From Dehalococcoidales bacterium (lineage in GTDB: Bacteria; Chloroflexota; Dehalococcoidia; Dehalococcoidales; RBG-16-60-22): a stretch of 7,558 nucleotides of DNA. Numbering within the stretch: the stretch's first letter is position 1; every line of letters begins with the position of its first letter. Made by a program: the position numbers and the translations under genes. The notes under the pieces were generated by a model. That model was not told the DNA's origin. It saw only the letters and a list, made by a program, of their open reading frames with translations, and searched no databases. Positions 1 to 7,558 of this stretch are shown here, one piece after another. The stretch spans positions 1 to 7,558 of the forward strand of contig JADHXF010000070.1 in assembly GCA_016783105.1 (NCBI GenBank), read 5' to 3'.

Positions 1-105
1 GGAAGGCCAGCGCGCGGCTCCCTGTTCTCCGGTTATTCGGGAAAGGGGGTCGAGTTTGGCCTTCATCCCCGGTGATAACGCTTCCAGATAACTCCTCGTC
101 GCCAT
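1..105 (-). CDS. N-terminus of an unrecognised protein (partial, runs off left edge)
   Basis: An open frame of 35 codons starts with ATG at 105 and stays open to the window edge. The visible protein begins MATRSYLEALSPGMKAKL and continues with a mixed polar stretch. No signal peptide, membrane segment or recognisable motif is visible in this short piece, so no function is proposed. The start is well supported by an AAGGAGGTG Shine-Dalgarno (112-120 on the plus strand as CACCTCCTT) six bases upstream. It is divergent from uvrB, so the 210 bases between them hold both sets of control signals. Confidence 0.6.
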   Translation of the reverse strand, partial: MATRSYLEALSPGMKAKLDPLSRITGEQGAARWPS

Positions 106-111
106 TTTCCC

Positions 112-120
112 CACCTCCTT
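112..120 (-). promoter_or_regulatory. Strong Shine-Dalgarno for the left-edge minus-strand gene
   Basis: CACCTCCTT on the plus strand reads AAGGAGGTG on the minus strand, an almost perfect anti-SD match, six bases before the ATG at 105. It decides that start and shows that this organism uses SD-led initiation, in contrast to uvrB and the antitoxin gene. Confidence 0.7.
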
Positions 121-256
121 CTGAGCATAATATCATTAGAATAGTCAAATAAACATCCATCTTAAGTAATCCTTTCCCTGGTACTTTCGTCTGATTTAAA
201 CCGGATTGCTTTCTCCTGCAGCACAATGAAGCAGTGCAGTCATGCCTTGAATTTCA

Positions 257-285
257 TTGAAGCCATTACGACAACAGGATATACT
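257..285 (+). promoter_or_regulatory. Candidate sigma-70 promoter for uvrB
   Basis: TTGAAG at 257-262 and TATACT at 280-285 are separated by 17 bases, close to the TTGACA/TATAAT consensus. Predicted transcription would start near 292, giving a leader of about 24 bases with no Shine-Dalgarno. A second -10-like TATAAT at 305-310 lies only five bases before the uvrB ATG (see findings). Confidence 0.45.
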
Positions 286-315
286 ATGTTTAGAATCATA
301 TTCTTATAATCAGCC

Positions 316-2304
316 ATGCCAGGTTTTAAAATTGTTTCCGATTTCAAGATGACCGGCGACCAACCCCAGGCGGTGGACAAGCTGGTGGATGGTCTTGACA
401 GTGGTTTCCACCGGCAGACGTTGCTCGGGGTTACGGGCAGCGGCAAGACCTTCACCATGGCCAACGTGGTTGAGCGGGTGCAGCGGCCCACCCTGGTCAT
501 CTGCCACAATAAGACGCTGGCGGCACAGCTTGCCAGCGAGTTCCGCGAGTTCTTCCCCGATAATGCCGTGGAATACTTCGTCAGCTACTACGATTACTAC
601 CAGCCGGAAGCTTACGTCCCGCGCACCGACACCTATATCGAGAAGGAAATAGACATCAACGAGGAAATTGATAAGCTGCGCCACGCCGCCACCAAAGCCC
701 TCTTTGAGCGACGCGACGTGCTCATCGTCGCCTCGGTGTCCTGCATCTACAGCCTTGGCGAGCCTGGGGAGTATCGCAGCTTCGTGGTCAGCCTGAAACG
801 GGGAGAAAGCTATGGCCGACAGAGCCTCCTCCGCAAGCTGGTGGACATGCAGTACGAGCGCAACGACATCGATTTCACCCGCGGCCGGTTCCGTGTCCGC
901 GGTGACACCCTGGAGATACAGCCGTCTTACGAGGAGCTGGCGCTGCGCTTCGAGTTCTTCGGCGATGAAATCGACCGCATCGTCAAGATAGACCCGCTCA
1001 CAGGGGAGCTACTCGCCGAGCTTGACTCCATAGATATCTACCCCGCCAAGCACTTCGTCACCTCGCATGATAAGCTAGTGCTGGCGCTTGAGAGCATCAA
1101 ACTGGAGCTTGAGGAAAGGCTTGCCGTACTCAAAAGGCAGGGCAAGCTGCTGGAAGCCGCCCGCCTGGAGCAGAGGACCAACTACGACCTGGAGATGCTA
1201 CGTGAGGCCGGTTACTGCCACGCCGTGGAAAACTACTCCCGCCACCTCTCCCAGCGGGCGCCGGGAAGCCCGCCCTGGACGCTCATCAACTACTTTCCCG
1301 ACGACTTCCTGCTTTTTGTCGATGAGTCACATATGACCCTGCCCCAGGTACGCGGCATGTACCACGGTGACCGCTCCCGCAAGGAGACGCTGGTGGAATA
1401 CGGCTTCCGTTTGCCCTCGGCGCTGGACAACCGACCGTTCAATTTCACCGAGTTCAACGAGCGCATCAACCAGGTTATCTATGCCTCCGCCACCCCCGCC
1501 GACTACGAATACGAGCACAGCCAGCAGGTCGTGGAACAGGTCGTCCGCCCCACCGGCCTCCTGGAGCCCACAATCGAGGTCAAGCCGCCGAAAGGACAGA
1601 TTGACGACCTCCTCGACCAGATAAAGACCAGGGTCGATAAAGGGGAGCGCTGTCTGATAACCACGCTGACCAAGCGGATGGCGGAGGAACTGGCCGATTA
1701 CCTCATTGAGATGGGTGTCCGGACACACTACCTCCACTCTGAAATTGACACGCTGGAAAGGGTGGAGATACTGCGCAACCTCCGCCTTGGTGTCCATGAC
1801 GTCGTCGTTGGCATCAACCTGCTGCGCGAGGGACTCGACCTTCCCGAGGTCAGCCTGGTAGCCATACTGGATGCGGACAAGGAAGGCTACCTGCGGTCGA
1901 AAGGAGCCCTCATCCAGACCATGGGGCGCGCGGCACGCCACATTGGCGGCCACGTCATCATGTACGCCGATACCACCACCGGCTCCATGAAGGCCGCCAT
2001 TGACGAGACCAAGCGCCGCCGGCAGATTCAGGAAGCGTACAACCGCGAGCACGGCATAACCCCGCAGGGAATCAGAAAAGCGATTCGTGACATCACGAAA
2101 CGGGTAAAGATGGTGGCGGAAGCACGCACCTCGTATGATGCCGAAGCCCCGGTATCGAAAGAGGACGTGGCCCGGCTCATCAAAGAACTCGAAACGCAGA
2201 TGAAGTCCGCCGCCAGAAGCCTCGAGTTTGAAAAGGCGGCGCTGCTCCGCGACCGCATCATAGAATTACGCCATGAATTTGACCAGGTGGAAATAAAGAG
2301 GTAA
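316..2304 (+). CDS. uvrB: UvrB, excinuclease ABC subunit B
   Basis: A complete 662-residue protein of normal family length. UvrB is the DNA-damage-verifying helicase-like subunit of cytoplasmic UvrABC nucleotide excision repair. It receives damaged DNA from UvrA and positions UvrC for the dual incisions. Visible motifs are Walker A GVTGSGKT (38-45), the beta-hairpin [10 protein letters not shown] that inserts between the strands (91-100), DESH motif II (336-339), YASATP motif III (389-393), motif V around REGLDLP (504-510), motif [10 protein letters not shown] (534-541), and the C-terminal UVR coiled-coil that contacts UvrC (about 615-655). The start [10 protein letters not shown] matches the usual UvrB N-terminus, but no Shine-Dalgarno precedes it. 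It is followed after 26 bases by the selenoprotein gene on the same strand, so co-transcription is likely. No missing residues or frameshift were seen. Confidence 0.98.
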
Positions 2305-2319
2305 ATTAATACCAAAAAA

Positions 2320-2326
2320 GGGGGAG
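2320..2326 (+). promoter_or_regulatory. Shine-Dalgarno for the selenoprotein gene
   Basis: GGGGGAG stands four bases before ATG 2331. It marks the start upstream of the in-frame TGA as the true one. The alternative TTG at 2433, downstream of the TGA, has no such site. Confidence 0.6.
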
Positions 2327-2330
2327 ACCA

Positions 2331-2831
2331 ATGACAGCTAAAAGCAAGGAAGAGGCCGCCAGCCAGGCCTACCGCAACGGATTGGATTATATGCCCAAAT
2401 ACCACGGCTGAGGCCAGTGCACTGTTCTTGCGTTGCAAGAAGCGCTTGACATGAGGGACGACAACCTCTTCAAAGCCGCCAGCGGACTCGGCGGCGGACT
2501 CGGCCAGATGAACGACGTCTGCGGCGCCCTGCTGGGGGCCAGCCTGATGCTCAGTGTGAAGTACGGGCGCAGCCGGGAAGAAATTGAAGACTATGAAATA
2601 GCGAAAAGCTCCTATCTCCCCGTAGCCAGATTATACAAATGGTTTGAAAAAGAGTTCGGTTCCGCCACCTGCCGGGGAGTCCGCACCAGGATGGCCGGCG
2701 TTTTCTATGACACCAAGATACCCTGGCAGAAGGAAATGGCCGATGAGGCCGGGCTGCCGGCAATGTGCGCCGAGCTGGCGGCAAAAACAGCCGCCCATAC
2801 GGCGGAAATGCTCTGGGACGGCACCGAATAA
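2331..2831 (+). CDS. C-GCAxxG-C-C family redox protein, probable selenoprotein (TGA at 2409 read as Sec27)
   Basis: One continuous frame of 166 residues runs from an SD-led ATG through an in-frame TGA (codon 27) to TAA at 2829-2831. The protein before the TGA (KYHG) and after it (GQCTVLALQE) reads as one family member. Position 27 is where I expect the first conserved cysteine of this family (compare YNCAQSV), giving U27-G-Q-C30, a redox UxxC motif. Further family marks are the glycine-rich SGLGGGLGQM (51-60), C64 in DVCGALLGA (62-70), C114 in FGSATC, and C146. The family is thought to be redox-active, with cysteines that may bind a metal or cluster. Its substrate is unknown, and there is no signal peptide or haem CXXCH. 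The gene lies 26 bases after uvrB, probably in its transcript. The alternative is a nonsense-mutated gene. The stem-loop at 2416-2446 and the otherwise clean frame argue against that. Confidence 0.82.
2409..2446 (+). promoter_or_regulatory. Bacterial SECIS-like element (UGA plus stem-loop)
   Basis: The UGA at 2409-2411 is followed by a perfect 7-bp stem, TTCTTGC (2425-2431) with GCAAGAA (2435-2441), capped by loop GTT (2432-2434). Below it, a four-base 5' bulge (2421-2424) sits over a second helix, 2416-2420 with 2442-2446, one pair being G-U. The loop begins with G followed by U, 21-22 bases after the UGA. This is close to the geometry and GU loop of the E. coli fdhF SECIS bound by SelB. The function is inferred from that likeness. 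Confidence 0.75.
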
Positions 2832-2852
2832 GAAAAAAAGACGTAGCTCACC

Positions 2853-3002
2853 GTGGTGGAAGACAGCAAGTCAGATATAGATACCAGGCAGGAGCGCCGC
2901 GAGGAGAAGCTCCGGAAAAAGCGGGCGCGGGTGAAAAAGCACGGCAAAAACCTGGCCCGGGTCTACATGGACGCCATTTTGAAGAGGTTAAGGCACAGGT
3001 AG
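2853..3002 (+). CDS. Small basic hypothetical protein (49 aa)
   Basis: GTG at 2853 (or GTG at 2856) opens a 49-residue frame ending TAG at 3000-3002. The protein is very rich in Arg, Lys and Glu, with a helical run RQERREEKLRKKRARVKKHG followed by NLARVYMDAILKRLRHR. It is probably a single long charged helix that might bind nucleic acid or a partner protein, which is inference only. I have the impression that similar short basic proteins recur in Dehalococcoidia but cannot check it. There is no clear Shine-Dalgarno. It sits 21 bases after the selenoprotein gene, so coupled transcription is likely. The last codons (MDAILKRL) reappear in degenerate form at 3711-3735, beyond the toxin-antitoxin pair, which supports this frame as real coding sequence. 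Confidence 0.5.
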   Translation: MVEDSKSDIDTRQERREEKLRKKRARVKKHGKNLARVYMDAILKRLRHR

Positions 3003-3031
3003 CAGGTTGCTTTGAAAAAATATAAAAGTGG
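2967..3031 (+). repeat. Direct repeat, left copy (3' end of the small basic gene)
   Basis: Positions 2967-2991 match 3711-3735 at 24 of 25 bases (one C/G difference). The likeness continues weakly with indels to a shared TATAAAAG followed by G-rich sequence (3021-3031 here, 3763-3773 there). The copies bracket the toxin-antitoxin pair. Confidence 0.65.
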
Positions 3032-3042
3032 GAATATCCCAC
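3028..3042 (+). promoter_or_regulatory. Operator-like inverted repeat before the antitoxin gene
   Basis: GTGGGA-ATA-TCCCAC is a 6+6 inverted repeat with a three-base centre, ending directly against the -35 box. The half-site TCCCAC recurs at 3054-3059, inside the promoter spacer, 17 bases after the first. The placement suits repression by the antitoxin or toxin-antitoxin complex, as is usual for such modules. This is inferred from position. Confidence 0.55.
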
Positions 3043-3071
3043 TTGACAGATAATCCCACCAATGTTATAAT
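3043..3071 (+). promoter_or_regulatory. Perfect consensus sigma-70 promoter of the toxin-antitoxin operon
   Basis: TTGACA (3043-3048) and TATAAT (3066-3071) are separated by exactly 17 bases, matching the housekeeping consensus at all 12 positions. Transcription should start at about 3078, which is the first base of the GTG start codon, so the mRNA is probably leaderless. Confidence 0.85.
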
Positions 3072-3077
3072 CTCACC

Positions 3078-3362
3078 GTGATGGCTATGATAATAAAAGA
3101 TGAAGAGTTCATAAGGGTAGCCGAGAGCGTGAAGCCGGATGCTAAAAAACGAGTGGTTCTGCCCAAACCACCGGTACAAGAAGGCATCACATATCATATA
3201 TACAGCAACAGAATCGGGCAGATTATTCTGGACCCACAGGTAACCATCCCCGCTTCAGAAGCATGGCTGTTCAATAACCCGGATGCCATTGCGTCAGTTC
3301 GGCGGGGCCTTGCCGATGCTGCACAGGGCAGGGTGTCAAAAGTCGACCTTGATACTCTATAG
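3078..3362 (+). CDS. Antitoxin-like protein with AbrB-type N-terminal region
   Basis: This frame encodes 94 residues from GTG 3078, or 93 from ATG 3081. The order of elements resembles type II antitoxins. KKRVVLPKPPVQEG (23-36) and RIGQIILDP (45-53) recall the swapped-hairpin AbrB/SpoVT DNA-binding fold. The segment AWLFNNPDAIASVRRGLADAAQGRVSKVDL (62-91) recalls the toxin-binding tail of many antitoxins. It would act in the cytoplasm by neutralising the next gene's product and repressing the shared promoter. No Shine-Dalgarno is possible because the promoter ends six bases before the GTG. The toxin gene follows after 11 bases. The family is assigned by pattern only, and a Phd/YefM-like C-terminus is an equally fair description. 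Confidence 0.65.
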   Translation: MMAMIIKDEEFIRVAESVKPDAKKRVVLPKPPVQEGITYHIYSNRIGQIILDPQVTIPASEAWLFNNPDAIASVRRGLADAAQGRVSKVDLDTL

Positions 3363-3373
3363 GGTCAAGCGTT

Positions 3374-3667
3374 TTGTTTGAGCTAGAATGGGCAAATGAA
3401 GCAAGGCAGGCTTACATCCTGCTCAAAGGTGATGCATCCCAAATAAAACGCTGCAAAGCGGTCAAGAAGACCATCAGGTTACTGGTAAGGAATCCACGGT
3501 ACCCTGGCCTCCAGACGCATGAATTCATTAGTCTAACAGGCCCGAATGGGGAAAAGGTTTTTGAAGCATATGCGGAACAGAAGACGCCGGCAGCCTACAG
3601 AGTCTTTTGGTATTATGGTCCTTCAAGGGGTATAATCACCGTTTTCGCAATTACTTCTCACCCATAG
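3374..3667 (+). CDS. RelE/ParE-like toxin
   Basis: 97 residues starting at TTG 3374, which is the only usable start. A weak AGGG (3361-3364) overlaps the antitoxin stop codon. Length, basic charge and the C-terminal strand pattern YRVFWYYGPSRGIITVFAITSHP (75-97) fit the RelE/ParE fold, whose members cut ribosome-bound mRNA or poison gyrase. The N-terminal half ELEWANEARQAYILLKGDASQIKRCKAVKKTIRLL supplies the expected pair of helices. I cannot tell which activity applies. The gene order (antitoxin first, 11-base gap, one strong promoter) supports a type II toxin-antitoxin pair. Confidence 0.65.
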   Translation: MFELEWANEARQAYILLKGDASQIKRCKAVKKTIRLLVRNPRYPGLQTHEFISLTGPNGEKVFEAYAEQKTPAAYRVFWYYGPSRGIITVFAITSHP

Positions 3668-3710
3668 TCACGTCTTAACAAAGGGAAACTATTTCTTCGA
3701 TAACCCGGAT

Positions 3711-3773
3711 ATGGACGCGATTTTGAAGAGGTTAAAAAGGAAAGAAGTGAGGCAAGTTGTATAAAAGGGGAGC
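3711..3773 (+). repeat. Direct repeat, right copy (degenerate tail of the small basic gene)
   Basis: ATGGACGCGATTTTGAAGAGG and the following bases copy 2967-2991 with one mismatch, then drift. In frame it reads MDAILKRLKRKEVRQVV and ends at TAA (3762-3764). No Shine-Dalgarno or upstream coding sequence accompanies it, so it looks like a remnant rather than a gene. The 174 bases between the toxin and the minus-strand module hold nothing else I can identify. Confidence 0.6.
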
Positions 3774-3814
3774 ACTTTCAGTAAGAGTTACGAGTTTGTT
3801 AGCAAAAAGATATA

Positions 3815-3830
3815 ATAACGTGGTAGTTAT
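3815..3830 (-). terminator. Weak possible terminator of the minus-strand module
   Basis: ATAAC (3815-3819) pairs with GTTAT (3826-3830) around a six-base loop, just past the TAG of the HEPN-like gene. On the minus strand it is followed after a few bases by a short T run (CAAAAAGA on the plus strand, 3803-3810). The stem is only 5 bp and AT-rich, so the call is weak. Confidence 0.25.
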
Positions 3831-3841
3831 AGAAATAGGCG

Positions 3842-4591
3842 CTAGGTTTTAGTTTTGCTTCGCAAAATCTCAAATGATTGTTTATAACCTAGGGAAGTCA
3901 GTTTGTAGCCTTGCTGAATATTTCCTTCAATAAATCTCTTTCTGTAGATAGTTCTTATTGCATTTGAAACGGTTGAATTTGCACGTCTGTTCATATCTTT
4001 TTTAATCTGTGAAAACAAAACTGGTGAAGGGAAATAATGAAATAACAGGGTAAGAAGCTCCTCTTCAGCGGTTCCAGCCTTAAGAACAAGCCTTCTGTCG
4101 CCGAAATCTTCAACTAAAATGTTAACCGGTATCTGTATAAATTCAATGAGCTTACTTGCCGTAGACATATCACTTACTAGCAAATATCTAACTAGTTCGG
4201 AGAGCATCCACTGACTTGATGAAAAAAGGTGTTGAAGATCATATATGTTGGGGTTAACCTCACCCTTATGAGCAATGCTTCGCTTACTACGGAGAGTATA
4301 ACTTGCACGTGCTACACGTGCGAGAGTTATTCGCAAATCGTCAGGTATATTAGCAGAGCGAGACTCAAGATTTTTTAAATAGTCGTCAACCTTTGGATTC
4401 TTATCATATTTGCCATGCTCTAGGAACTGAAGGATTTGCACAACTGTTTCTATAAACTTACCTGGTGCTGACCTCTCCAATGTCTCGGTTGAGAGGTCAG
4501 ATTTTATCAATACGAAGTTATCAACAACATCGGAGGCAAGCTCTGATGGAAGAAACTCCTTTAGCTTTTCTATTAATTCGGAGGGTATCAT
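3842..4591 (-). CDS. HEPN-like / winged-helix protein of a two-gene accessory module
   Basis: 249 residues with no membrane segments. The central helical part contains TLRSKRSIAHKGEVN (99-113). R101 and H108 fit the RxxxxxxH (Rx4-6H) signature of HEPN ribonucleases, and it is followed by a long helix SSSQWMLSELVRYLL. The C-terminal part (about 176-245, AEEELLTLLFHYF through YKLTSLGYKQSFEIL) reads as a winged helix-turn-helix. HEPN domains are common in toxin, abortive-infection and CRISPR RNases. A role in RNA cleavage or host defence is therefore inferred, not shown. Its ATG overlaps the stop of the upstream gene by four bases (ATGA), with no own Shine-Dalgarno, so translation was coupled to that gene, which is now broken by an IS. 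Base composition is clearly more AT-rich than uvrB, suggesting transfer. Confidence 0.6.
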   Translation of the reverse strand: MIPSELIEKLKEFLPSELASDVVDNFVLIKSDLSTETLERSAPGKFIETVVQILQFLEHGKYDKNPKVDDYLKNLESRSANIPDDLRITLARVARASYTLRSKRSIAHKGEVNPNIYDLQHLFSSSQWMLSELVRYLLVSDMSTASKLIEFIQIPVNILVEDFGDRRLVLKAGTAEEELLTLLFHYFPSPVLFSQIKKDMNRRANSTVSNAIRTIYRKRFIEGNIQQGYKLTSLGYKQSFEILRSKTKT

Positions 4592-5025
4592 GACGCCAAA
4601 TTTTTAATTAATTCCGCAGCCTTTTTTTGACCAGGAATTGTAAGAACCCAGTTCTTACCCTGAGCCAAGAATATGTTCTTTTGCTTCTTCATGATAGAGG
4701 AAAAATTTGCCGAATCATGTGAAGCATAATGTTTGCACATGTCAATGAGTATACCTTTCGGAATGTCAGGAGACCCTGTTTCAAGCATATTCTTTACACC
4801 CAAGAGAAGAGCTAAATTAAACTGCCGTCCTGTTTTACCCTTCTCTTTTAAGTCATTCACGATAATCTGATATTCGCTGCCATCAAAATGATATACTCTT
4901 GTCCATTCTTCATCAGAAATGCCATTTTGGGCAAAGAAAGCTAAAGCAGACTTAGGGATCTCCGTAACGGGAGTACCAGGGGCGAAAGTTTGAGCACTTG
5001 CTGAAATAGCTTGTCCTCTAACTAG
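4588..5025 (-). pseudogene. 3' piece of the IS-interrupted partner gene
   Basis: This is the main body of a gene whose first 36 codons lie at 6577-6684, beyond the IS. Joined across one copy of the 8-bp target duplication, the protein has 179 residues and no stop. This piece supplies residue 37 onward (RGQAISASAQTFAPG...). The last 60 or so residues (SPDIPKGILIDMC through LTIPGQKKAAELIKNL) look like a winged helix ending in a helix. I do not recognise the family. In the present allele an open frame extends from an ATG at 5151 inside the IS, so a chimeric protein with an IS-encoded N-terminus is possible but has no visible start signal. Its TGA overlaps the HEPN-like gene's ATG. Confidence 0.75.
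5018..5025 (+). repeat. Target-site duplication, left copy
   Basis: CTAACTAG abuts the left IS end and is repeated exactly at 6575-6582. The bases on either side of the two copies differ, so the duplication is exactly 8 bp. Confidence 0.85.
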
Positions 5026-5045
5026 TTTCCCCTGAAAAAGTCGAG
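5026..5045 (+). repeat. Left terminal inverted repeat of the IS
   Basis: The left end begins TTTCCCCTGAAA. It matches the reverse complement of 6555-6574 at 16 of 20 positions, including an unbroken CCCCTGAAA. Confidence 0.85.
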
Positions 5046-5047
5046 TG

Positions 5048-5076
5048 TAGTCAAGCGTGAGCGAAGCTGGTAAAAT
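5048..5076 (+). promoter_or_regulatory. Candidate transposase promoter
   Basis: TAGTCA (5048-5053) and TAAAAT (5071-5076) are 17 bases apart, at 4/6 and 5/6 consensus. Both lie inside the IS just after the left repeat, the usual place for a transposase promoter. Confidence 0.4.
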
Positions 5077-5121
5077 AGGGGTAAAGGATTTATCCTGAAG
5101 GACTAGAAGGGGGTGACTCCG

Positions 5122-6489
5122 ATGCTTCGCATTGATAACTGTAGCCAGCAACAGCCGTCGTTATGGGAGACGGTATTACCGCCGGAGATATTCCAGATGA
5201 ACGAGGAATTGACCAAGGTAGATACGCTGCTTGATGACGAGCGTTTCTTTATTCCCTTCAAGGAGGGATTTAACGTTCGCATGGGCCGGCCGACAACCGC
5301 GGTAGCCACTTATCTGCGCCTGATGTATCTCAAGTATCGGTACGGGCTGGGTTACGAGGTACTGGTGAAGGAAGTCAGCGACAGTCTTGCCTGGAGACGG
5401 TTCTGCCATCTTTCCCTGGATGACCGTGTTCCCGACAGCACTACCCTGATCAAGCTGACCCACAAGTATGGAGCGGACACGGTAAGCTCCTTGAATGACA
5501 CGCTGGTACTGAAGCTGAAAGAAAGTAAGGTAATCAGGGGCAGGAAACTGCGCATTGATACCACGGTGGTGGAGTCGGATATTCACCATCCCACGGATAC
5601 GGGACTGCTTAATGACGGGATCAGGGTAATTACCCGTGTGGTAAGTCAGTTGAAGAATGTGGTACCCGGTATCGGGGGCCGGTTCGTGAAGCATACGAAG
5701 AAGGCGAAGAAGGTCTATCTTGGCCTGATGAAGGTCATGAAGAGTAGAGCAGGCAAAGATAAGGCCGCGTTGAAGGATGCCCAGAAAAAGCTGGTCAAGA
5801 TAATGGGAGAGGTCATCGCCGGTGGCCGGCAGGTGCAGACGGAACTGGAGTCGCTTCAGGAGACATCTCCCCTGGTGAACAGAATGCGAGGGCAGATGGA
5901 TGAATGGATCAAGTCAGCTGAGAAGGTAGTCCGGCAGACGCAAGAGGTAATCAAGGGAAACCGGCACCTCTCCCGGCGGCTGGTAAGCCTGTTTGACACT
6001 GATGCCCGACCGATAAAGAGGGGCAAAGCCAGGGCGGATACCGAGTTTGGGCGCAAGGTACTTTTAGGAGAGACCGACCACGGCATTATCACCGTTTACG
6101 ATGTGCTCGACGAAAACCCTTCCGATACAACGCTACTCAAACCCGCCGTAAAGGGACACCGGCGCCTGTTCCGCAAGAGACTCAAGGCGGTGGCTGCGGA
6201 TCGTGGTTTCTCGTCGCAGGCGAATGAAGACTGGCTAAAGCACACGGGAGTCAAGCGGGTCAGTATCCCGAAAAGGGGGAAGGTGGGGGAAGAACGGCGC
6301 AGACATCAAAAGCAGTCCTGGTTCAAACGGCTCCAGCGGTTCCGGGCCGGGATAGAAGGCAGGATAAGCCTGCTCAAGAGGAAGTTCGGGCTCAGGAGAA
6401 GCCGGATGCGGGGCAGCGCCGGGACGAAAACATGGGTCGGGCAGAGTATATTCACCCAAAATCTCTGGCAGGCCGCCCGGATAGGCTAA
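5122..6489 (+). CDS. IS5-like DDE transposase
   Basis: 455 residues from ATG 5122. AAGGGGG (5106-5112) stands nine bases upstream of that ATG, which makes it a better start than the in-frame GTG at 5113 that touches the same G run. The N-terminal part (YLRLMYLKYRYGLGYEVLVKEV) is of the DUF772 type. The catalytic residues are likely D146 in LRIDTTVVES, D360 in VAADRGF and E412 in FRAGIEGRISLLKRKFG. A lysine-rich helical insert of roughly 120 residues (about 170-290) separates the first strand from FDTDARPIKRGKA. The enzyme cuts and rejoins its own IS ends in the cytoplasm. All three acidic residues are present and the frame is unbroken, so it is probably active. Confidence 0.9.
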   Translation: MLRIDNCSQQQPSLWETVLPPEIFQMNEELTKVDTLLDDERFFIPFKEGFNVRMGRPTTAVATYLRLMYLKYRYGLGYEVLVKEVSDSLAWRRFCHLSLDDRVPDSTTLIKLTHKYGADTVSSLNDTLVLKLKESKVIRGRKLRIDTTVVESDIHHPTDTGLLNDGIRVITRVVSQLKNVVPGIGGRFVKHTKKAKKVYLGLMKVMKSRAGKDKAALKDAQKKLVKIMGEVIAGGRQVQTELESLQETSPLVNRMRGQMDEWIKSAEKVVRQTQEVIKGNRHLSRRLVSLFDTDARPIKRGKARADTEFGRKVLLGETDHGIITVYDVLDENPSDTTLLKPAVKGHRRLFRKRLKAVAADRGFSSQANEDWLKHTGVKRVSIPKRGKVGEERRRHQKQSWFKRLQRFRAGIEGRISLLKRKFGLRRSRMRGSAGTKTWVGQSIFTQNLWQAARIG

Positions 6490-6505
6490 AATATCTGATG
6501 AAACA

Positions 6506-6521
6506 GGTATTCGGGAATACC
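6506..6521 (+). terminator. Hairpin in the IS tail, possible transcription block
   Basis: GGTATTC (6506-6512) and GAATACC (6515-6521) form a perfect 7-bp stem with a two-base loop, 16 bases after the transposase stop. No T run follows on the plus strand, so a classical intrinsic terminator is not supported. It may instead block transcripts in either direction or have a role at the IS end. Confidence 0.35.
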
Positions 6522-6554
6522 AAAACGAGGAGACCATCCTTCCAACTGGATTTT

Positions 6555-6574
6555 CTTGAGTATTTCAGGGGGAA
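6555..6574 (-). repeat. Right terminal inverted repeat of the IS
   Basis: Read on the minus strand it begins TTCCCCCTGAAA and pairs with the left end at 16 of 20 positions. It also supplies the premature TGA (6565-6567) that ends the 5' piece of the interrupted gene. Confidence 0.85.
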
Positions 6575-6582
6575 CTAACTAG
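6575..6582 (+). repeat. Target-site duplication, right copy
   Basis: CTAACTAG, identical to 5018-5025, lies immediately outside the right IS end and within the coding sequence of the interrupted gene. Confidence 0.85.
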
Positions 6583-6684
6583 AGAGTCAAGAAGGATTTC
6601 AAAGCATTTGACTTGGTATTTATCGGGGCATTTATCGGATACTTCTATGACTTCATCTAAGTGTTTCTTTATCGTTTCAAACAT
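6575..6684 (-). pseudogene. 5' piece of the IS-interrupted partner gene
   Basis: ATG 6684 follows GGAGGTG (6690-6696) by five bases. The 36 codons before the insertion point (MFETIKKHLDEVIEVSDKC through FEILLDSLV) are mainly helical and charged. In the present allele the frame reads three codons into the IS (SSP) and stops at TGA 6565-6567, giving a 39-residue product. Removing the IS and one duplication continues the frame into RGQAISASA at 5019. The start, ribosome site and promoter are intact, so the insertion alone appears to have broken the gene. Loss of this coupled first gene should also reduce the HEPN-like protein. Confidence 0.75.
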
Positions 6685-6689
6685 ATTAG

Positions 6690-6696
6690 CACCTCC
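6690..6696 (-). promoter_or_regulatory. Shine-Dalgarno of the interrupted gene
   Basis: CACCTCC on the plus strand reads GGAGGTG on the minus strand, five bases before ATG 6684. This strong site fixes the start of the 5' piece, a frame too short to stand out by itself. Confidence 0.75.
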
Positions 6697-6716
6697 AAAA
6701 TAATGTCCATGTCTTT

Positions 6717-6749
6717 ATTATACCCTATACATTTATATTTTCCTATACA
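6717..6749 (-). promoter_or_regulatory. Promoter and operator-like direct repeats of the interrupted module
   Basis: On the minus strand a perfect TATAAT (plus-strand ATTATA, 6717-6722) would start transcription near 6710, about 26 bases before the ATG. No good -35 lies 17 bases upstream (TAGGAA, 6740-6745). Instead TGTATAGG occurs twice, 18 bases apart (plus-strand CCTATACA at 6724-6731 and 6742-6749), over the spacer and -35 zone. Such repeats suit a repressor or activator, perhaps one of the module's own winged-helix proteins, but that is inference. Confidence 0.45.
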
Positions 6750-6960
6750 AATATGATATGCCTTTTAAAAGGATGCTACATATAACTAGAGTAGGGAATT
6801 AGAATAAATGAATTGCAGATTTAGGCGGTTATTCGAGATAGCATAAATGTTAAGACAGTTAAGAACGACTTAAAGTAGTGAAAAGCTTTTATACGTATAC
6901 GCTGGAGGATTAGTTAAGATAATGAGAAACGGGGCGTATTTTATGACCCACCAAAGCCTC

Positions 6961-7558
6961 TTATTCTGATTGTTCCTCGCTTTCTCCCCCACTAACGTCT
7001 CCCCCCATCTCCTCCTCAAGCTGCTCCATAATGCGGGCCGCCCTGGGGTAGCCGATGTGCAGTTTCCGTTGCAGGAAAGAAGTTGAAATGTGGTCGTGCT
7101 GCTCCATGAGCTCGCGGGCGGAGTCCATGAGCGGGTCTTCCTGCTGTCCGCTGCGACCACCCATCGTGGGGGGTAGCGCCACTTCTTCGATTTTAATCGA
7201 CGCCGCTTCCTGTTCCTTCTGGCTGTTCCAGAAGTACACCAGCCGCTCCACCTCGGAATCGGAGACAAAGCAGCCCTGGAGTCGCCTCGGTTTTCCGGCT
7301 TCCGTGGGCATGTAGAGCATGTCTCCCCTGCCCAGCAGCTTTTCCGCCCCGGCACCGTCAAGGATGGTGCGCGAGTCCACCTGGGAGGTGACGGCAAAGC
7401 TGATGCGGGTGGGGAAATTGGCCTTTATCAGCCCGGTGACCACGTCCACCGATGGACGCTGTGTGGCCACGACCAGGTGAATGCCGGTGGCACGGGCAAG
7501 CTGAGCGAGCCGGCACAGGATATGCTCCACCTCGTCAAAGCTGGTCATCATCAGGTCA
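6961..7558 (-). CDS. ftsK: DNA translocase FtsK/SpoIIIE, C-terminal part (gene continues past right edge)
   Basis: The last 198 residues of the protein are present, and the frame is open at the window edge. It begins within the strand after Walker B (DLMMTSFDEVEHILCRLAQLARATGIHLVVATQRPSVDVVTG). It continues with GLIKANFPTRISFAVTSQVDSRTILDGAGAEKLLGRGDMLYMP, the conserved end of the RecA-like motor. The last 60 or so residues (DPLMDSARELMEQHDHISTSFLQRKLHIGYPRAARIMEQLEEE) are the gamma winged helix that reads polar chromosome sequences, followed by an acidic tail. The protein is a hexameric, membrane-anchored, ATP-driven DNA pump that clears chromosomes from the septum and promotes dimer resolution. 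The ATG at 7551 is internal, not the start. The composition is GC-rich, like uvrB. Confidence 0.95.
   Translation of the reverse strand, partial: DLMMTSFDEVEHILCRLAQLARATGIHLVVATQRPSVDVVTGLIKANFPTRISFAVTSQVDSRTILDGAGAEKLLGRGDMLYMPTEAGKPRRLQGCFVSDSEVERLVYFWNSQKEQEAASIKIEEVALPPTMGGRSGQQEDPLMDSARELMEQHDHISTSFLQRKLHIGYPRAARIMEQLEEEMGGDVSGGESEEQSE

Follow-up and report, generated by a model that had tools for sequence, protein, structure and literature searches.

Does an in-frame TGA close to the start of a cysteine-rich protein gene of a Dehalococcoidales bacterium end translation, or is it read as selenocysteine (Sec)? The gene lies directly downstream of uvrB in a stretch of 7,558 nucleotides (contig JADHXF010000070.1 of assembly GCA_016783105.1, positions 1 to 7,558 of the forward strand), which we analysed as a whole and refer to as the window. 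On comparative sequence evidence, UGA codon 27 of this gene is very probably decoded as Sec. The gene would then give rise to an all-helical selenoprotein of 166 residues belonging to the C_GCAxxG_C_C family, in which Sec27 would replace the first of four conserved cysteines (C27, C64, C114 and C146), with SelB and tRNA-Sec reading the UGA under the direction of a hairpin just 3′ of it, here called SECIS-like after the Sec insertion sequence (SECIS). The features on which the argument draws are as follows.

2331..2831, + strand: candidate C_GCAxxG_C_C selenoprotein gene, 166 codons, Sec predicted at codon 27
2320..2326, + strand: Shine-Dalgarno-like GGGGGAG, 4 bases from ATG 2331
2409..2411, + strand: in-frame TGA, codon 27, putatively read as Sec; a Cys codon in Cys-type relatives
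2416..2446, + strand: SECIS-like hairpin; lower stem 2416-2420/2442-2446 (5 base pairs, bp), apical stem 2425-2431/2435-2441 (7 bp), loop GUU 2432-2434 with G first
2520..2522, + strand: C64 codon (in CGALLG)
2670..2672, + strand: C114 codon
2766..2768, + strand: C146 codon

The reading frame and its TGA codon

From ATG 2331 to TAA 2829-2831 the frame spans 166 codons, with a sole internal TGA at 2409-2411 and no internal TAA or TAG; coordinates and translation thus confirm the original prediction, made from the window sequence alone, of a Shine-Dalgarno-led frame broken only at codon 27. The GGGGGAG run also precedes the gene in two related loci (L011 and L012), and a third (L013) has AGGAGG instead. 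A single-TGA open frame is by itself weak evidence: the window contains eight more stop-to-stop runs of at least 140 codons with exactly one TGA, all but one of them on the minus strand. This frame is raised above chance because its codons are conserved on both sides of the TGA and the TGA itself is kept.

A scan of named genomes yielded five loci: three in Dehalococcoidia metagenome-assembled genomes (MAGs) at 99% (L011), 97% (L012) and 80% (L013) protein identity, and two (L014 and L015) in a Chloroflexota MAG. The TGA is kept in L011, L012 and L013; L014 has TGC at the site, and L015 does not extend to it. Since the codon recurs in three other assemblies, one of them at 80% protein identity, a sequencing error is excluded. 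In the nearest genome compared, G001, the protein is 99% identical and its frame again contains one TGA; the locus there, L008, is apparently the same as L011, as is L025 (G176) the same as L013, and each was counted once. A second C_GCAxxG_C_C paralogue in G001 (L010, G001:C79) also has TGA at the same Cys position.

For a wider view of site 27 we aligned six-frame translations of 79 loci together with the window. Seventy-eight rows passed E 1e-6, three of them gapped at the column, and removal of repeats and of rows with fewer than 48 bases left gave 68 distinct sequences, window included. The site is TGA in 15 of these, Cys in 53 and nothing else in any; TGA-bearing loci were deliberately included, so that the 15 of 68 cannot be taken as a frequency, and neither TAA nor TAG could appear because both were used to delimit the frames. 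The alignment that the original prediction had called for therefore bears out its claim that the TGA sits at the first conserved Cys of the family: position 27 is Cys or TGA in 68 of 68 aligned sequences. Of 294 genomes sampled from the class, 45 had a match; among the 57 matches listed, TGA is present in at least six, and those starting after the site could not show one. A sample of the phylum searched with PF09719 gave matches in 47 of 400 genomes, with TGA flagged in 5 of 59 rows.

It is highly improbable that the TGA is a true stop, leaving either a pseudogene or a 132-residue protein initiated at TTG 2433 and complete without any upstream part. Mechanical open reading frame (ORF) calling does yield exactly that product: the table-11 ORF list places the gene start at TTG 2433, as the original prediction had anticipated, and gives 132 amino acids, although what is lost is one of the four conserved residues and not, as then thought, the whole redox centre. 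Likewise, 104 of the 120 homologues listed (of 137 matching) lack everything before residue 28 in their database records; the 16 that cover site 27 all have Cys there. However, codons 2-26 are under purifying selection. Against L013 they show 9 synonymous differences over 13.8 sites and 11 non-synonymous ones over 61.2, a dN/dS ratio (omega) of 0.14 (codons 28-166: 0.12), and against L012 five synonymous differences and no non-synonymous one; from the low dN/dS and the L012 differences it follows that both sides of the TGA are kept as protein. Moreover, the site holds TGA where relatives have Cys, never another sense codon, and by inspection there is no Shine-Dalgarno-like run close upstream of TTG 2433. 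The 104 late starts probably arise because gene callers stop at UGA, although fragments may be among these entries, 22 of which do not start until residue 60, and Sec in the 104 is something that we infer. Read as a selenoprotein, the window gene would be a clean example of one shortened by automatic annotation.

The hairpin and the selenocysteine machinery

The bacterial SECIS is a hairpin just 3′ of the UGA with a G in its apical loop, and this is what the window has: the 48 bases from the TGA fold into a 7-bp apical stem, a GUU loop and a 5-bp lower stem. Thermodynamic stability was dropped as evidence for it (z 0.38), and a comparison of Sec with Cys forms was used instead, along with synonymous resampling. 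The longest hairpin with an early loop G averages 7.0 bp in the 15 Sec forms versus 4.2 bp in the 53 Cys forms. With the four close relatives counted as one, the difference between 12 Sec and 53 Cys sequences has a one-sided p of 4e-6, some of the 12 sharing a genome and so not being fully independent; nine of the 12 reach 7 bp. The folding energy of the stretch also differs between the two forms (p 1e-5). In L013 the lower stem is, by inspection, preserved by paired changes (AGUGC/GCGCU to AAUGC/GCAUU).

The machinery for Sec insertion was sought in relatives, and the nearest genome, G001, holds all of it: selB (337.9 bits), selA (553.9 bits) and selD (395.6 bits), each above its cut-off, and a tRNA-Sec scoring 73.6 bits against a cut-off of 47, with anticodon TCA according to ARAGORN. 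A looser tRNA-Sec threshold matches all 14 control genomes too, and hence the cut-off and ARAGORN decide. Among the other genomes with the TGA form, selA is whole in G176, G028, G154, G304, G367, G374 and G464, and tRNA-Sec exceeds the cut-off in five of the six TGA-form genomes tested (G001, G176, G041, G154 and G170). The presence of this machinery is consistent with Sec decoding and is not proof of it. As a statistical test, co-occurrence with selA proved uninformative, selA being found in 323 of 400 sampled phylum genomes at E 1e-30. The selD match of G001 (L022, G001:C78) itself contains one in-frame TGA, which would fit the known Sec-containing SelD.

Several observations weigh against Sec decoding directed by this hairpin. 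The hairpin region is no stabler than its shuffles, 131 of 200 of which fold equally well or better. The minimum-energy fold of L012 differs, with one lower-stem pair broken by inspection, although its 7-bp apical stem is present. A stem of 7 bp is also reached by five of the 53 Cys forms and missed by three of the 12 Sec sequences, and it arises in 122 of 10000 random synonymous versions of the window. As for the machinery, the sel genes were read in relatives, of which G001 is the nearest, and not in the window's own assembly; G041 and G170 hold selA in pieces only; and in G028, where 150 of 734 candidates were scored, no tRNA-Sec was matched at E 1e-9.

A genome-wide reassignment of TGA to another amino acid, e.g. 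Trp or Gly, has next to no likelihood: the larger ORFs of the window do mostly end in TAA or TAG and no positive evidence for reassignment was found, but the minus-strand ORF 4588-5151 terminates in a TGA that overlaps the next start, relatives have Cys at the site, the selA and selB matches of G001 are free of in-frame TGA, and G001 has the TCA-anticodon tRNA-Sec and the Sec pathway. Sec decoding of codon 27, the central inference of the original prediction, is supported by the site occupied only by TGA or Cys, the conserved TGA, the codon constraint, the sel genes in relatives and the hairpin.

The predicted fold and the role of the four residues

Residue conservation was tallied over 121 database rows, window protein included, and 78 genome rows, with U written as C. 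C64 is present in 121 of 121 database rows, and C114 and C146 in all 120 that have a letter there. The genome rows have C64 in 77 (one gap), C114 in 76 (two gaps) and C146 in 69, with six gaps and V, T and A once each.

What would these residues do together with Sec27? The predicted fold of the window protein is all-helical, and its only strong structural match among the fold families listed is split-Soret cytochrome c. Because the match is to the domain of that protein holding conserved non-haem cysteines, a metal or iron-sulfur centre is the most likely role: the four residues would hold the centre, and selenium would tune its redox potential or reactivity. We put forward this role, as opposed to a metal-free selenol/thiol redox site, tentatively, at just short of an even chance. 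Three points count against it. No Foldseek match reached E 0.001 (PDB 1h21 stands at 0.0068). The profile alignment spans residues 55-161 only, and the equivalence of C27 is drawn from structural range and spacing. Finally, apart from the title of 1h21, the iron-sulfur character of the centre in split-Soret cytochrome c is taken as background knowledge.

Sec serves redox chemistry in many proteins, and a metal-free redox pair of Sec27 with a distant conserved Cys (C64, C114 or C146) is a somewhat less likely alternative. Co-conservation of the four residues would fit such a pair, but four thiol or selenol residues in a split-Soret fold suit a metal site at least equally well.

It is unlikely that Sec27 attacks as part of a thioredoxin-like, metal-free selenenylsulfide pair with C30, a view of the site that builds on the UxxC of the original prediction. 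The motif itself is there: UGQC (U27, C30) is common to the window, L011, L012 and L013, and part of the Cys relatives have CxxC. Yet position 30 varies. It is C in only 19 of the 78 genome rows, the others having S (30), A (18), G (4), T (4), V (1), N (1) or a gap (1), and the 17 database rows that reach it have C in 10, S in 6 and A in 1. C64, C114 and C146 are nearly invariant and thus far better conserved, and both the all-helical prediction and its sole strong structural match, split-Soret cytochrome c, speak against a thioredoxin-like pair. Because of the variation at position 30 we ruled out UxxC as the conserved redox centre of the family.

Returning to the metal centre, we collected 20 split-Soret relatives from Chloroflexota (L055-L057 and L101-L117), all of which score below the family cut-off of 400 bits and are for that reason called relatives. 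At the first conserved Cys position 18 of them keep Cys and two have TGA, L057 (G464:C3, GAUMYGAF) and L113 (G910:C109, HNUSGGSF). In both, CxxCH motifs are present and the TGA is followed by a hairpin, features that make them look like Sec-containing split-Soret cytochromes; G464 has selA. L115 and L116 were also flagged with TGA, but not at the first conserved Cys, and L115-L117 have no haem part in the aligned stretch. No Sec-containing split-Soret cytochrome was found in the accessible text of the literature searched, which does not prove that none has been published. Across the C_GCAxxG_C_C/split-Soret fold, the haem-bearing L057 and L113 included, Sec may have repeatedly replaced the first ligand of a four-residue metal site, a generalisation that we think rather unlikely. 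If true, the window protein would join the very few natural proteins in which selenium is a ligand to non-haem iron, be it an iron-sulfur cluster or another centre. With a solved fold to refer to and two apparent Sec-containing split-Soret relatives, the family gains a testable hypothesis, namely that Sec binds a metal centre.

Genomic surroundings and comparison with known families

Two neighbours accompany the gene.

316..2304, + strand: uvrB, ending 26 bases upstream of the candidate selenoprotein gene
2853..3002, + strand: short basic ORF, GTG start by inspection; Pfam RDD1 at 19.3 bits, below the cut-off of 27

The 26-base gap agrees with the placement directly downstream of uvrB in the original prediction. 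The three genes adjoin in L011, L012 and L013 as well, the short ORF in L013 over 22 residues. As a clue to function the neighbourhood was set aside: Pfam scans of ten neighbouring ORFs (L012, L013 and L014) revealed no common pathway.

Further downstream, two short adjacent ORFs (94 and 97 amino acids; 3078-3667, + strand) are toxin-antitoxin-like by layout only and had no match in Pfam, NCBIfam or PADLOC scans; they are present in L011 and were not found in L012. Two overlapping ORFs of no confident family follow (249 and 187 amino acids; 3842-5151, - strand), neither of them found in L011 or L012, though both loci reach ftsK. At 5113-6489 (+ strand) lies an ISNCY-type transposase (NF033593, 437.5 bits), which was not found between the short ORF and ftsK in L011 or L012. 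A defence role for this island was discarded, as four proteins gave no PADLOC match.

The product matches PF09719 (C_GCAxxG_C_C) at 82.5 bits against a cut-off of 27, the match starting at residue 27, and TIGR01909, 'C-GCAxxG-C-C family (seleno)protein', at 47.5 bits, barely above the cut-off of 47.4. The original prediction had referred to recognised Sec forms of this family, rightly so: the TIGR01909 name says as much, and two reviews, in the text accessible, list the family as a selenoprotein (PMC9312934; PMC13188914, as forms 1 and 2). A Sec motif for the family was not found in the same portions of these reviews. A member is listed in the accessible part of a Desulfococcus biacutus proteome paper, and the family was not found in the accessible parts of a 2008 marine paper (PMC2398784) or a 2006 selenoprotein survey (PMC1794560). 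Sec in the C-GCAxxG-C-C family is already on record, and the window gene adds another member to a family so far described only as 'putative redox-active'.

Among known systems, split-Soret cytochrome c (PDB 1h21; NF047622) appears from the structural prediction to share the fold of the window protein. It differs in having a haem-binding C-terminal part with CxxCH, whereas the window protein has neither (no CxxCH in 166 residues) and matches NF047622 only at E 0.015, which makes it a fold relative and not a member. The best NCBIfam E-value, 1.5e-13, is to the DVU_1555 family C-GCAxxG-C-C protein (NF045669), of which the window protein is likewise not a member, its 50.7 bits being well below the cut-off of 103. 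With the PF09719/TIGR01909 family it shares the four conserved positions, U27 replacing the first Cys, and it differs from the listed members in its Dehalococcoidia lineage and its place beside uvrB.
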